NCBI RefSeq assembly: GCF_023278365.1 | Contig: NZ_CP075338.1 | Coordinates: forward strand, 1,054,001-1,118,000 | DNA length: 64,000 bases | DNA from: Epilithonimonas zeae | GTDB lineage: Bacteria; Bacteroidota; Bacteroidia; Flavobacteriales; Weeksellaceae | Direction of reading: 5' to 3' | Part shown: positions 39,431 to 43,521 of the stretch, one piece after another | Layout: each line of letters starts with the position of its first letter | Position numbering within the stretch: position 1 is the first letter of the stretch | The notes under the pieces: generated by a model | The model's input: the letters and a program-made list of their open reading frames with translations, nothing else | The model's database searches: none | Told to the model about the DNA's origin: nothing | Program-made: the position numbers and the translations under genes

Positions 39431-40132
39431 TTAATTAATTTTCCTATTCTCCAAAGTCGCTTTATCAGTTACTTTCAGTTTTTTTGAAGGATTTCCGTAA
39501 TAAATCAATTTTGATGTATTACCGATTTTCCCTTTGATCTCTTCATCTACATTCAGTTCTGCATAATTTCCGTTCTGAGACTCGATTTCCAAATCTTTGA
39601 TATACCAATATGGCGAAATAATACTTGCAGTATCTTTGATATTAAGCTTGGCTAAAGTCGTTTTTCCCAACAGATTAGCCCGGCTTTTATTTGCCATTTC
39701 TATCTCAGACTTTTCTGAAATCACTGAACCGATAAATTTAGCATTATCTTTTAAATGAAGTGCGAAATTTTCAACTTTCATCTGACTGGAAATATTAAGC
39801 TCCACAGAATCAGAGATTTTAATCACATCAAAAGGATTTTTTCCATAAATCGTAATGTTATAAAAATCCACTTTATCTGTTTCGCTTTTCTCTGAGATTG
39901 ACAGATTTTTGTCTTTAACTTCAATATTAAGATTATCAAAGAAATTAGGATAAGTTTCCACGTTCACGAAATTGTGCGGACTCTGAACATAAAAAACACG
40001 GAATTTACCTTTCAAATCCAGTCTGGAAAATTCAGCTAACTCCAAATCTTTGGACTGGATTTCGCCTTTTGGTTTTACTTTTCCACAGGAAACGATTGTT
40101 AAGATTAGAAGTAAGTATAATAGTTTTTTCAT
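39431..40132 (-). CDS. GIN-domain (DUF2807) lipoprotein
   Basis: This 233-residue protein has a lipoprotein signal (LTIVSC-G) followed by a GIN domain, a right-handed beta-helix-like repeat protein found on Bacteroidota surfaces. Repeated strands such as DLKGKFRVFYVQSP and VKISDSVELNISSQM support this. No enzymatic motif is seen. It starts 2 bp after the stop of the nuclease-like gene, so it may share a transcript with the ATPase/nuclease pair, although it appears to be an ordinary cell-surface gene. Confidence 0.8.
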   Translation of the reverse strand: MKKLLYLLLILTIVSCGKVKPKGEIQSKDLELAEFSRLDLKGKFRVFYVQSPHNFVNVETYPNFFDNLNIEVKDKNLSISEKSETDKVDFYNITIYGKNPFDVIKISDSVELNISSQMKVENFALHLKDNAKFIGSVISEKSEIEMANKSRANLLGKTTLAKLNIKDTASIISPYWYIKDLEIESQNGNYAELNVDEEIKGKIGNTSKLIYYGNPSKKLKVTDKATLENRKIN

Positions 40133-40134
40133 TT

Positions 40135-40632
40135 TTAGACAATTACAATATTAGTTTGAATATCGATTCTAAATCCATATTCACCTTTAAATGATTTTTG
40201 GAATTCATTATCGATAACAAAAAAGTTACCTTTCTTTTTGCTGTTACAACCAAAAACCTTTTTATGTGTAAATGACTTAAGCTCTTCAGTATGGAATTCT
40301 TTTAGAAATTTAATTGTGCTTTCTAGCTGGTCTAACATTTCTCCACTACTTAAGTTTTTCTTGTCTTTCAATTCCACAAGATAAAGATGTCTCTTAGTAG
40401 TTAGCATTCCTTCGCATCTTCCTCTACCCTTATATTCATTATCTTGAATGATACATTTATCTATAGCTGTGAATATTATGTCATATCCATTTTTATTAAA
40501 AACTTCTGCTTGCCAAGAATCTTTATTTGTTTCAATAATATATGCTGGAGTTCCATCTTCATCATCTCGTAAACCAAAATTATTTTTATCTACAGGAATT
40601 TGCTGACATTTTGAATCAAAAAAATCTGTCAT
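40135..40632 (-). CDS. Small PD-(D/E)XK-like protein, ATPase partner
   Basis: I do not recognise this 165-residue protein as a named family. Its centre reads RCEGMLTTKRHLYLVELKDK: Glu74, then twelve residues to Glu87-x-Lys89, the pattern (D/E)-Xn-E-x-K of PD-(D/E)XK nucleases on a predicted strand-turn-strand. A helix with Asp101-Gln102 follows, as in many such nucleases. The frame overlaps the ATPase stop by four bases (ATGA), implying coupled translation. Its base composition is AT-rich like the ATPase and unlike its flanks. I infer an effector nuclease of a two-gene defence or toxin system; binding without cleavage remains possible. Confidence 0.75.
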   Translation of the reverse strand: MTDFFDSKCQQIPVDKNNFGLRDDEDGTPAYIIETNKDSWQAEVFNKNGYDIIFTAIDKCIIQDNEYKGRGRCEGMLTTKRHLYLVELKDKKNLSSGEMLDQLESTIKFLKEFHTEELKSFTHKKVFGCNSKKKGNFFVIDNEFQKSFKGEYGFRIDIQTNIVIV

Positions 40633-41861
40633 AACTCTTCTTCTAACTCTAATAATTTATCAAAAAACTCATTACTTTTTCTCAAACCAAGATTTAAAAA
40701 ATTTTTGTCCGAGGGAATTCCCTCAAAGTTAGGAAGCAATCTTAAAGTTCCATCTTCTTCATTCATTTCATAAATTGAAATATCTGAAGGTCTAATAAAT
40801 AAATCTGAAGACAACATTTCCGTCAATTTCTTCTGAACAACATCATTTTTACTCTTCTTGGCTTTATCAAATAATGTATAGCTTTCTATCATAATTCCTA
40901 AAAAGCTCATTAAGTATGGACTATGAGAAGTAATAATCAGTTTGTTTCCTGCAATCTTATTATTATTTAATACTAGATTTTTGATGATTTCTAATTGAGA
41001 ATCCGGAAATAAGTTCTGCTCGGGTTCCTCAACTATATTAAAGAAAACATTTTTGTTAAATTTATTTGATAATGTTGAAATAGTAATACGCTTTTGTTCA
41101 TCAGTCAAATTTTTATCCGACCAAATTTTATCTACAATAAATCTAAATCTTAATTGTTCATCAATACTCATCGACTCCCTTTGATTAATTTTAGAATCAA
41201 CAGAGTTTGTTAAATAGTTTGTTACTAAAAAAAGAGGAATCGAAGATTGAAAACCACTCGACGACTCGGTCAAAAAAACTTTATAATCAGAACCTTTTAA
41301 GTTTACAACATCATTTAATTTATCATATTCAATTGACAAATTATTTATTGGAAAAACAACTGAACTTTTTAAAGTATTTTTTGCATTGTTAAACTCAGTG
41401 AGGAATTCATTTAGTGCTTCTGAAGATAATTTTAATTCGTTTGGCGTTTTAACGTATGAGATAAAATTTCTTTCAGAAGGGATGTACATAATTTGTGGCA
41501 ATTGATAACTACCATCAACGTTTGTAATAACTTTGAAATTATCATTCTCGTATATAAAATGAAAAGCGTCACCTTTATATTCAATAATTGTTTTTTTATC
41601 TGTAGGAAAATAATTTTCTAGTCTATGATAAGTTAAAAAATGGTTTTTAAATCGGTTTTTTCGAATTAACCATTTTTCATCAAAATCTCCTCTAGTCAAT
41701 GCTTTTTCAATCCACATAAACGTAGAAATCAATTTTGCAATTGTACTTTTTCCAGAACCTTGATTTCCAATAAAAATTGTATTTTTAGAAATATCTATCC
41801 AACCATCATTTTCTAGAAGACCATTTTTAATAGGCCCAAAATTCTTAATCTTAATTTTCAT
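40629..41861 (-). CDS. ABC/OLD-like AAA ATPase (AAA_15/AAA_21 type)
   Basis: This 410-residue protein has the full ABC-type ATPase set in order: Walker A GNQGSGKST (32-40), signature-like SSSGFQSSIPL (200-210), Walker B VFFNIVEEPEQNLFP (272-286) and the H-loop ITSHSPYL (His313). There is no long SMC coiled coil and no C-terminal Toprim nuclease, unlike OLD proteins. Such stand-alone ATPases pair with small effectors in PARIS, Septu and similar systems, where they sense phage. The partner gene overlaps by 4 bp. The gene begins 11 bp after a glycosyltransferase stop. Two sample lines I counted here (41281-41400) have 26 G/C in 120 bases, against 28 in 60 at 42121-42180. Confidence 0.88.
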   Translation of the reverse strand: MKIKIKNFGPIKNGLLENDGWIDISKNTIFIGNQGSGKSTIAKLISTFMWIEKALTRGDFDEKWLIRKNRFKNHFLTYHRLENYFPTDKKTIIEYKGDAFHFIYENDNFKVITNVDGSYQLPQIMYIPSERNFISYVKTPNELKLSSEALNEFLTEFNNAKNTLKSSVVFPINNLSIEYDKLNDVVNLKGSDYKVFLTESSSGFQSSIPLFLVTNYLTNSVDSKINQRESMSIDEQLRFRFIVDKIWSDKNLTDEQKRITISTLSNKFNKNVFFNIVEEPEQNLFPDSQLEIIKNLVLNNNKIAGNKLIITSHSPYLMSFLGIMIESYTLFDKAKKSKNDVVQKKLTEMLSSDLFIRPSDISIYEMNEEDGTLRLLPNFEGIPSDKNFLNLGLRKSNEFFDKLLELEEEL

Positions 41862-41872
41862 AATATTTCAAA

Positions 41873-42826
41873 TTAAATCATTTCCTCAATATGATAATTC
41901 TTATGCTCACGATTGGTTCTGATAATTAACTCTCCTAAGAATCCGGCTACGAAAAGTAAACTTCCCAGAATCATCATTGTCAAAGCAATGAAAAACCAAG
42001 GATTGTTAGCAATCAGATTTCCGTAAATTTTGAAAATATAAACATCAATCAGTTTTGAAACACCTAACCAAACCGCCGATAAAAACCCAATGATGAACAT
42101 CAATGTTCCCGCCGCTCCGAAGAAGTGCATCGGTCTGCCACCAAATCTGCTCACAAACCAAAGCGTTACCAGATCCAAAAATCCGCGAACAAAACGTTCT
42201 GTCCCGAATTTTGAGGTTCCATAAGGTCTTGCCTGGTGCTGAACTGGTTTTTCGGTAATATTTCTGAAACCTGCATTAGCCGCCAGAACCGGAATGTAAC
42301 GATGCATATCACCGTAAACATCAATAGATTTTACGACTTGTTTTCTATAGGCTTTCAAACCGCAATTGAAATCGTGAAGCGAAACGCCGGAAACTTTCCT
42401 AGCCGCCGCATTGAAGAGTTTTGACGGGATATTTTTGGTCATCACATTATCGAAACGTTTCTTTTTCCAACCGGAAACGATGTCGTAATTACCAGCAGTT
42501 ACCATTTCGTAAAGCTCAGGAATCTCTTCCGGAAAATCCTGTAAATCTGCGTCCATTGTGATAATTACATCACCATTCACTTTTTCGAAAGCAGCGTGAA
42601 GTGCCTGCGATTTTCCATAGTTTTTGGAAAATTTAATCCCGTGGATCTGCGGATGCTGGATTTTCATATTTTCTATGATAGACCAAGACAAATCTGTGCT
42701 TCCGTCATCTATGAACCAAACTTCGTAAGATAATTTGTTGTCTCGACAAACATTGTCGATTCGGGTGAACAACTCTTCCAAAGAGTCTTGTTCATTAAGC
42801 AAAGGAATGATTATAGAAAGATTCAT
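41873..42826 (-). CDS. Family 2 glycosyltransferase, DPM1/ArnC-like, membrane anchored
   Basis: This 317-residue protein has the GT-A nucleotide-sugar site (FIDDGSTD, MDADLQDFPEE), the catalytic-side QHQARPYGTSKF, and two C-terminal transmembrane segments. This is the layout of ArnC/DolP-mannosyltransferase-like enzymes, which transfer a sugar to a polyprenyl phosphate carrier on the inner membrane. A repeat array begins 11 bp upstream of its start codon. Confidence 0.92.
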   Translation of the reverse strand: MNLSIIIPLLNEQDSLEELFTRIDNVCRDNKLSYEVWFIDDGSTDLSWSIIENMKIQHPQIHGIKFSKNYGKSQALHAAFEKVNGDVIITMDADLQDFPEEIPELYEMVTAGNYDIVSGWKKKRFDNVMTKNIPSKLFNAAARKVSGVSLHDFNCGLKAYRKQVVKSIDVYGDMHRYIPVLAANAGFRNITEKPVQHQARPYGTSKFGTERFVRGFLDLVTLWFVSRFGGRPMHFFGAAGTLMFIIGFLSAVWLGVSKLIDVYIFKIYGNLIANNPWFFIALTMMILGSLLFVAGFLGELIIRTNREHKNYHIEEMI

Positions 42827-42837
42827 TTTTTATAAAA

Positions 42838-42936
42838 AGATGTTAGATGTTAGATATCAGATATTAGAATTTTTAATTTCAGAGTAAATAATTTGTTTAA
42901 ATAATACCCTTTAATTATTTATTATCCAACATCTTA
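42838..42936. repeat. Intergenic 7-bp-periodic element (AGATGTT words)
   Basis: Five consecutive 7-bp units (AGATGTT, AGATGTT, AGATATC, AGATATT, AGAATTT) at 42838-42872. The right end AACATCTTA (42928-42936) is the inverse of the same word and contains the stop codon of the DUF4199 gene. The architecture matches the S23 cassette with a different core word and no gene inside. Confidence 0.6.
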
Positions 42937-43521
42937 CTCATAGCGTTTTTTGTTTTTCAAAAAGCCAGCGATGATAATAGACAAAAGTAAATAAAATAGT
43001 AAAAATCCACCAAAAATAGCCGACAAAAATTGGAAAGAAAAATAGTTTCTGTTTTCCTTTTTCGCAATATCGCGTGCTAATTTTTGTTCTTTATAATTGT
43101 CTTCTAATTCTTTAATCTTAGTTCTGTCTTTTTGATTGGCTGCTTCAACTTTCAATTTTGCATAAGACTCATCCAGGTTTTTCATTTCTGTTTGGATGTA
43201 TTGATGATTCAGCATTTCTCTTGCTTCTGTATCTACGTAATTTAGAAAAGCAAAAATCGCCAGCATAGAAAGCCCCCCTCCAACGAACAAAGTCACGAAA
43301 CATTGCTTAAAAGCTTGCGGATATGTGATTTTGTTGTTTCCTCGCAACCAAAGAACGGAAAGAAATCCAGCCAAAACATACAGAAAAGTCATCCCAAATG
43401 CATTGACTTTCATACTGGTATCAAAATAATTGGCATCAGCGAAAAAGTAATAAACAACGAAGAAAGTCAACATTGTCGCTAAAAATAAACCAAAGCCAAC
43501 GGCTACCGGATTTTTTGTCAT
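42934..43521 (-). CDS. DUF4199 membrane protein
   Basis: This 195-residue protein has four hydrophobic segments: three in the N-terminal half (about 8-28, 42-60, 70-92) and one near the C-terminus (about 166-188). A charged helical stretch rich in Lys and Glu (about 105-155) separates them. This is the DUF4199 pattern of Bacteroidota. No function is known. It lies upstream of the glycosyltransferase gene. Confidence 0.85.
   Translation of the reverse strand: MTKNPVAVGFGLFLATMLTFFVVYYFFADANYFDTSMKVNAFGMTFLYVLAGFLSVLWLRGNNKITYPQAFKQCFVTLFVGGGLSMLAIFAFLNYVDTEAREMLNHQYIQTEMKNLDESYAKLKVEAANQKDRTKIKELEDNYKEQKLARDIAKKENRNYFSFQFLSAIFGGFLLFYLLLSIIIAGFLKNKKRYE

Follow-up and report, generated by a model that had tools for sequence, protein, structure and literature searches.

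Results

A predicted ATPase and a predicted nuclease in an overlapping gene pair

The window analyzed here is a stretch of 64,000 nucleotides from Epilithonimonas zeae (RefSeq assembly GCF_023278365.1, contig NZ_CP075338.1, positions 1,054,001 to 1,118,000), and our subject is a pair of genes on its reverse strand, which we call A and B. Gene A (40629..41861, reverse strand) encodes a 410-residue OLD/PtuA-like ABC ATPase, the predicted sensor or licensing subunit, and gene B (40135..40632, reverse strand) encodes a 165-residue predicted PD-(D/E)XK nuclease, the predicted effector; they match the profiles PDC-M29A and PDC-M29B, respectively. The stop codon of A and the start codon of B share an ATGA at 40629..40632 on the same strand, which suggests, from the nucleotide sequence, that the two genes are translationally coupled. 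The original prediction for this DNA had proposed a candidate defence pair of an ATPase and a PD-(D/E)XK-like protein. Its coordinates, overlap, and motifs all hold, and the pairing is supported by the profile searches, the conserved core, the structural model, and the co-occurrence described below, although the pair proves to have been catalogued already.

Gene A carries a Walker A motif, GNQGSGKST (with K38), an ABC-signature-like SSGFQS (S201-S206), an EEPE motif (E278/E279), and H313. Matches from 54 genome loci were aligned by profile (55 rows besides that of the window): K38, S39, G203, E278, and E279 are unchanged in all 52 covering rows and H313 in 53 of 53, the exceptions being S201, which is alanine in one row, and Q205, which is histidine in three. 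The protein matches PDC-M29A of PADLOC with 557 bits (6.9e-168; residues 2-409 of 409), and the next family reaches 51.5 bits. Structure comparison, with similarity judged among the folds listed by Foldseek or VIA, places its fold nearest that of the retron PtuA, with DNA-bound Rad50, SMC heads, and AriA also listed, and the similarity to ABC ATPases is clear. The Pfam scan gives neither a nuclease domain nor a Toprim match, in agreement with the earlier description of an ATPase with Walker A, signature, Walker B, and H-loop that lacks a nuclease domain; GajA models, among the matches listed, align with A only partially and with at most 28.1 bits. A sequence search of the PDB with A returned nothing significant (best E 0.11).

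The PD-(D/E)XK motif comprises an acidic residue, an E-x-K at the end of the next strand, and then a helix with a glutamine. In B, these positions would be Glu74, which directly follows Cys73 (codon 40411..40413, reverse strand), Glu87-Leu88-Lys89 (codons 40366..40374, reverse strand), and Gln102. Across the 54 rows of the B alignment C73, E87, and K89 never change, position 102 is glutamine in all 53 covering rows, and position 74 is aspartate in 50 rows and glutamate in four, so that the E-x-K nuclease-like core named by the original prediction is conserved. The same C73, E87, and K89 are the sole invariant columns over 12 very divergent B proteins, a set that includes the partners found on the viral contigs L186 and L187. 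A structure without this core would have spoken against a nuclease; the model has strands at 75-78 and 82-89 and a helix at 96-119, which, compared by their positions along the chain, fit a core of E74, E87-x-K89, and Q102; the fold match is weak. Among the top structural matches, all weak, are McrC, FokI, a repair endonuclease, and BspD6I. Matches of B to PDC-M29B in PADLOC score 180.5 and 170.3 bits, and the next best scores 16.6 bits. We found no HNH and no Toprim/DUF4435 match to B in Pfam, PADLOC, or NCBIfam, as had been anticipated for this effector, and a PDB sequence search gave nothing significant (best E 0.63). The profile matches, the conserved core, and the strands and helix of the model together support the prediction that B is a small nuclease of the PD-(D/E)XK type.

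Strict pairing and patchy distribution

Gene A lies directly upstream of B in all 54 genome loci found through B, including two (L015 and L023) in which a contig end cuts A and only its end is present. By record titles, these loci are spread over Bacteroidota, Proteobacteria (Gamma- and Betaproteobacteria), Desulfobacterota, Spirochaetota, and Cyanobacteria (Microcystis). Approached from the A side, 18 of 395 genomes of the phylum hold 20 places with a close A, the window's own included, and 19 of these adjoin a match to the B profile. The single A place without B is L083, and at a different one, L065, an in-frame stop interrupts A. Measured against the nearest orthologous pair (L010), the ratio of nonsynonymous to synonymous divergence (dN/dS) is ~0.04 for A and ~0.10 for B, and both genes are under purifying selection.

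Any match to A occurs in seven of 98 genomes (own included), and none is found in 91 of 97 relatives. Divergent A genes in three genomes (G003, G010, and G060) have a B-like neighbor at 31-35 bits with the gene order kept, while the neighbor of a fourth (G024) is a 199-residue protein with a C-E...E-L-K...Q-L pattern that the B profile misses. A weak A match of 31 bits in G033 (L008), which has no B, was taken to be a short AAA protein and left aside. The alignments of homologs drew on 42 of 71 B homologs (A1) and on 24 of the 120 A homologs listed, from 5651 found (A2). A profile built from the 12 divergent B proteins gave 98 matches, most of them nameless, with no Vibrio among the source names given. 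NCBIfam reached no cut-off, and the best E in PHROGs was 0.014. E. coli genomes gave no match to a proteobacterial pair, for which 1727 bases of L013 served as the query.

On mobile elements, B was searched for and not found in phage records and IMG/VR, and it matched one of 72,556 plasmid records: in the Persicobacter sp. JZB09 plasmid CP012867.1 (44200-45916), the two genes adjoin, with identities of 36% for B and 42% for A. Two viral contigs of IMG/VR carry divergent A-B pairs (L186:4941-6681 and L187:1860-3744), whose A proteins match PDC-M29A with 152-169 bits and whose B partners have no PADLOC match at 1e-4, yet retain C-D/E and E-L-K. The A gene without B (L083:1483-4177, in G375) lies near a DNA-methylase-like open reading frame (ORF) and a 285-residue ORF that, by eye, may be a restriction enzyme.

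A variable site between GT2 and GIN

The pair is wedged, as first described, between a glycosyltransferase gene (GT2, PF00535; 41873..42826, reverse strand), which forms the upstream side of a variable site, and a gene for a DUF2807 head GIN domain protein (PF10988; 39431..40132, reverse strand), which forms the downstream side. By their coordinates, 11 bp separate the GT2 stop from A and 2 bp separate B from the GIN start. With a GC (guanine plus cytosine) content of 26.8%, A ranks lowest, and B, with 28.5%, second lowest, among the 50 ORFs of at least 120 residues in the window, which has 35.6% overall. The AT-richness reported earlier is therefore real, but the contrast with the GIN flank (31.8%) is smaller than that sample had implied; the glycosyltransferase gene has 39.4%.

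Within the genus, 23 genomes were searched (own included), and a close A is present in that of the window only, two others having a divergent A. The pair nevertheless occupies the same GT2-GIN site in four genomes (the window's, L010, L011, and L012). Between the window and L010, synonymous divergence (dS) is 0.67 for A and 0.45 for B, against 0.48-0.72 for six flanking genes and 1.48 for a seventh, faster gene; nonsynonymous divergence (dN) is 0.024 for A and 0.045 for B. The fast gene (42934-43521), which encodes a membrane protein, presumably of the DUF4199 family, lies beside GT2 and has a dN of 0.255. Since the pair has diverged in step with its flanks and is absent from other members of the genus, many losses or the exchange of whole segments fit better than a recent insertion, and recent acquisition of the window's copy is disfavored by a synonymous divergence similar to that of the flanks. 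This suggests a long-resident cassette that is often lost or exchanged. The idea of a foreign insert is therefore upheld in one respect, the pair being missing from most relatives and not conserved in all of them at this place, and weakened in another, by the shared site in four genomes and the flank-like dS.

The site itself is variable. Another 21 genomes of the genus have GT2, and the interval to GIN ranges from ~10-170 bp in some to a 149- to 192-residue membrane-protein-like ORF in five that were examined. At this site, one genome (G015, L107:3196-4680) has a 494-residue protein with no significant Pfam or PADLOC match, in which, by eye, an HsdR_N-like nuclease part seems to come after an EVE-like domain. 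In another (G022, L106:9064-16000), GT2 is followed by a block with genes for a type VI secretion system Tle1-like protein and a DUF2931 protein, plus a second similar ORF by eye, and the 16 kb that were fetched showed no GIN. Of the 84 family genomes with a GIN match, a further 40 were chosen; GT2 always lies upstream of GIN in them, at 5 to 3685 bp, and the stretches fetched contain no A or B match at 1e-6. We considered and rejected a dedicated defence island at this site, as the interval in these 40 genomes is mostly empty or holds short ORFs, with one Fic gene. Transposon or integron boundaries were also rejected: 39700-42200 has only short imperfect repeats, with no evident target-site duplication or terminal inverted repeat flanking the pair.

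Defence genes in the neighborhood

Neighborhoods of the pair were scanned in 22 of the 26 loci of at least 16 kb (51 loci considered, L013-L063), covering 88 of 104 candidate neighbors; the other 16, which were redundant, belong to three loci of Pseudomonas and one of Chitinophaga. In two of the 22, A-B sits inside a type I restriction-modification operon, with the order hsdM, hsdS, A, B, hsdR in one (L013:3507-11080) and hsdM, hsdS, a HEC-05-like gene, A, B, hsdR in the other (L029:2392-11049). The other neighbors belong mainly to metabolic families among the 25 of 95 Pfam families listed; the PADLOC batch lists 25 of its 131 families. Four large neighbors tested singly had no PADLOC match at 1e-15, and a loose control that is not organism-matched gave such a match for one of 48 other genes of the window.

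An orphan ATPase gene in a Microcystis phage

Gene gp13 of the Microcystis phage Mic1 (MN013189.1, 16586-17824; L184:3995-5233) is an intact A without B. Among 12 Microcystis genomes, seven contain A; six of these genes are full length, all six with an adjoining B, and the seventh match covers the first 120 residues only. The Mic1 protein is 92-95% identical to the six full-length Microcystis proteins. At the DNA level, the similarity to L059 (96.5%) covers A and 30 bp upstream, and stops at the junction where B would start. B was not found in the 92.6-kb Mic1 genome, while the same query finds it in all three Microcystis genomes searched alongside. A search for the Mic1 A in IMG/VR and other phage records gave no result.

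The dN/dS of the Mic1 gene against host genes is 0.40-0.51, compared with 0.10-0.20 among three host genes, and its branch in the tree is longer (0.029 vs 0.004-0.013 for host genes). The outgroup joins the Mic1 branch with a support of 0.14, so that a position of Mic1 A inside the host genes is not separated from one beside them; the direction of transfer, from host to phage, is suggested by the missing B in the phage and not by the tree. Two changes in Mic1 A, P11S and P385T, fall at positions that are constant in the six host copies, and alignment A2 shows no variation at their equivalents in the window's A (P10 and P383).

Discussion

The A-B pair is an already catalogued candidate, PDC-M29 (PADLOC-DB 2.0.0, 2023), and not a new system: a profile search against defence models, as had been advised for both proteins, places both in PDC-M29 along almost the whole of each protein. 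The order of the two genes agrees as well, they adjoin, in the window with an ATGA overlap, and we see no difference from the catalogued type. For PDC-M29, we found no assay, and its name was not found in the literature searched. According to the available text, PDC candidates stem from a guilt-by-embedding study (PMC12988326), and a preprint by Payne and colleagues is cited in the reference list of the WonAB paper (PMC12137116).

We propose that A-B is a two-gene anti-phage module of the PDC-M29 type that most likely resembles WonAB, and put the probability of this reading at roughly 0.6. What we observe are the motifs, the near-absolute linkage, the overlap, purifying selection, a clear fold similarity for A and a weak one for B, two restriction operons, and a patchy distribution; from here we infer a defence function and a nuclease gated by the ATPase, with an RNA target carried over from WonAB. 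In the proposed mechanism, ATP would make A dimerise by way of its Walker and signature motifs, and A would hold or license B. On a phage-triggered signal, A would then let B cut nucleic acid, most likely a cellular RNA on which translation depends, and growth of the infected cell would cease before phage assembly, as in abortive infection. That the pair serves defence in some form is very likely; that it acts abortively, and not by direct restriction, is probable; and by analogy with WonAB, the chances that B targets RNA rather than DNA appear about even.

WonAB of Vibrio cholerae, the best-studied system of the same two-part design, consists in the available text of its report of an OLD-type ABC ATPase, WonA, and a predicted PD-(D/E)xK nuclease, WonB, and acts as an abortive infection system through a block of translation (PMC12137116). 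The accessions are AWB73975.1 for WonA and AWB73976.1 for WonB. Both genes are needed, ATPase mutants and WonB K71A fail, and the action of the system seems to come after the onset of phage DNA replication. When WonB is overproduced, translation halts while genomic DNA stays intact; an excess over WonA makes WonB toxic, and there is no toxicity if WonA is missing or ATPase-inactive. Extra WonA has no phenotype, and WonA is required for WonB action (PMC12137116).

The structural comparisons could also be taken to favor direct restriction, in which A would recognize a phage DNA structure in an ATP-dependent manner and B would cut the phage DNA while the host is spared. Rad50-like proteins bind DNA, and DNA-bound Rad50 is listed for A, whose best structural matches are to PtuA; the best, weak matches of B include the DNA nucleases McrC, FokI, a repair endonuclease, and BspD6I, and the two loci inside type I restriction-modification operons would fit as well. 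Fold similarity does not, however, give a substrate, and that of B is weak, while WonAB, with the same design, spares genomic DNA and blocks translation, as far as its report is available (PMC12137116). We therefore consider direct restriction unlikely.

The constant order, the patchy presence, and the overlap of a small effector gene with that of a larger partner are also features of a toxin-antitoxin or addiction pair with no role in defence, in which A would serve as antitoxin and B as toxin. This seems improbable to us given that WonB is non-toxic without WonA, so that sequestration alone is ruled out there (PMC12137116, in the text available); the one A place in 20 that lacks B points the same way, but is not decisive, since an antitoxin could stand alone too. 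Could the pair instead be a housekeeping one for DNA repair or RNA processing, listed as a PADLOC candidate by chance? Its Rad50-like ATPase fold, many metabolic neighbors, and long residence at one site would be in line with this. However, 91 of 97 relatives have no A match, the spread over phyla is wide and patchy, divergent pairs occur on the viral contigs L186 and L187, and the pair has been inserted into two restriction-modification operons, all of which make a housekeeping role very improbable.

Returning to an abortive, ATPase-gated module, the orphan A of Mic1 invites a tentative extension. The phage may have taken up the ATPase subunit alone, apparently from Microcystis, and surplus or altered A could keep the host A-B pair inactive as a counter-defence, which we hold to be possible but somewhat doubtful. 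In the passages available, gp13 is transcribed in the late L2 cluster of Mic1 (PMC11237433), and the passages of two Mic1 papers, this one included, do not discuss gp13 as defence-related. Late expression fits a system acting after DNA replication. Several points weigh against counter-defence: late expression is unlike that expected of an early inhibitor, the relaxed selection on Mic1 A could mean a decaying passenger, and, as extra WonA has no phenotype and WonA is needed for WonB in the text at hand, surplus A need not inhibit. If counter-defence does hold true, the ATPase would be the on/off gate of the module, and PDC-M29, perhaps also WonAB, could be neutralized by its own sensor subunit. 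The Mic1 gene is in either event a concrete handle on how the ATPase controls the nuclease.

More broadly, the pair in the window is one copy of a widespread, uncharacterized candidate found, by record titles, in five phyla. Our analysis adds how widely the strict pairing extends, how constant the core is, and that a phage carries the ATPase gene as an orphan. As a natural second system next to WonAB, whose design it shares, A-B lends itself to the question of whether every stand-alone ABC ATPase with a small PD-(D/E)XK nuclease works by stopping translation.

Among known systems, Septu (PtuA/PtuB) and the PtuAB of retrons Ec78/Ec83 have an HNH nuclease as the partner, whereas B has no HNH match. 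In OLD and Gabija GajA, a Toprim domain is fused C-terminally to the ATPase, and the 410-residue A has no Toprim match. In PARIS (AriA/AriB), AriB is described as a Toprim nuclease in the portion of text available (PMC12409363), and B has an E-x-K core instead. The comparison with PARIS and Septu in the original prediction was thus apt for the ATPase; the effector differs, and WonAB is the better comparison. The authors of the WonAB study, in its available text, assign their system to a larger family that couples ABC-ATPase sensors to nuclease effectors, and count PD-T4-4 and an "OLD-ABC ATPase + novel REase" operon among its relatives (PMC12137116). PD-T4-4 is likewise an ATPase-nuclease operon, and four divergent relatives of A match PD-T4-4_A at 31-47 bits; however, PD-T4-4_A is not among the best 25 of 34 matches of the window's A, and none of the four matches of B is a PD-T4-4 model. 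With WonAB, A-B shares a two-gene operon, a stand-alone OLD-type ABC ATPase with its motifs, and a small predicted PD-(D/E)xK nuclease with a lysine that is essential in WonB (K71) and conserved in B (K89). WonAB is prophage-borne, whereas A-B is chromosomal, between GT2 and GIN, and the motif spacing differs (K34/E300/H333 in WonA and K38/E279/H313 in A), as far as the WonAB report is available (PMC12137116); the likeness described here is one of design.
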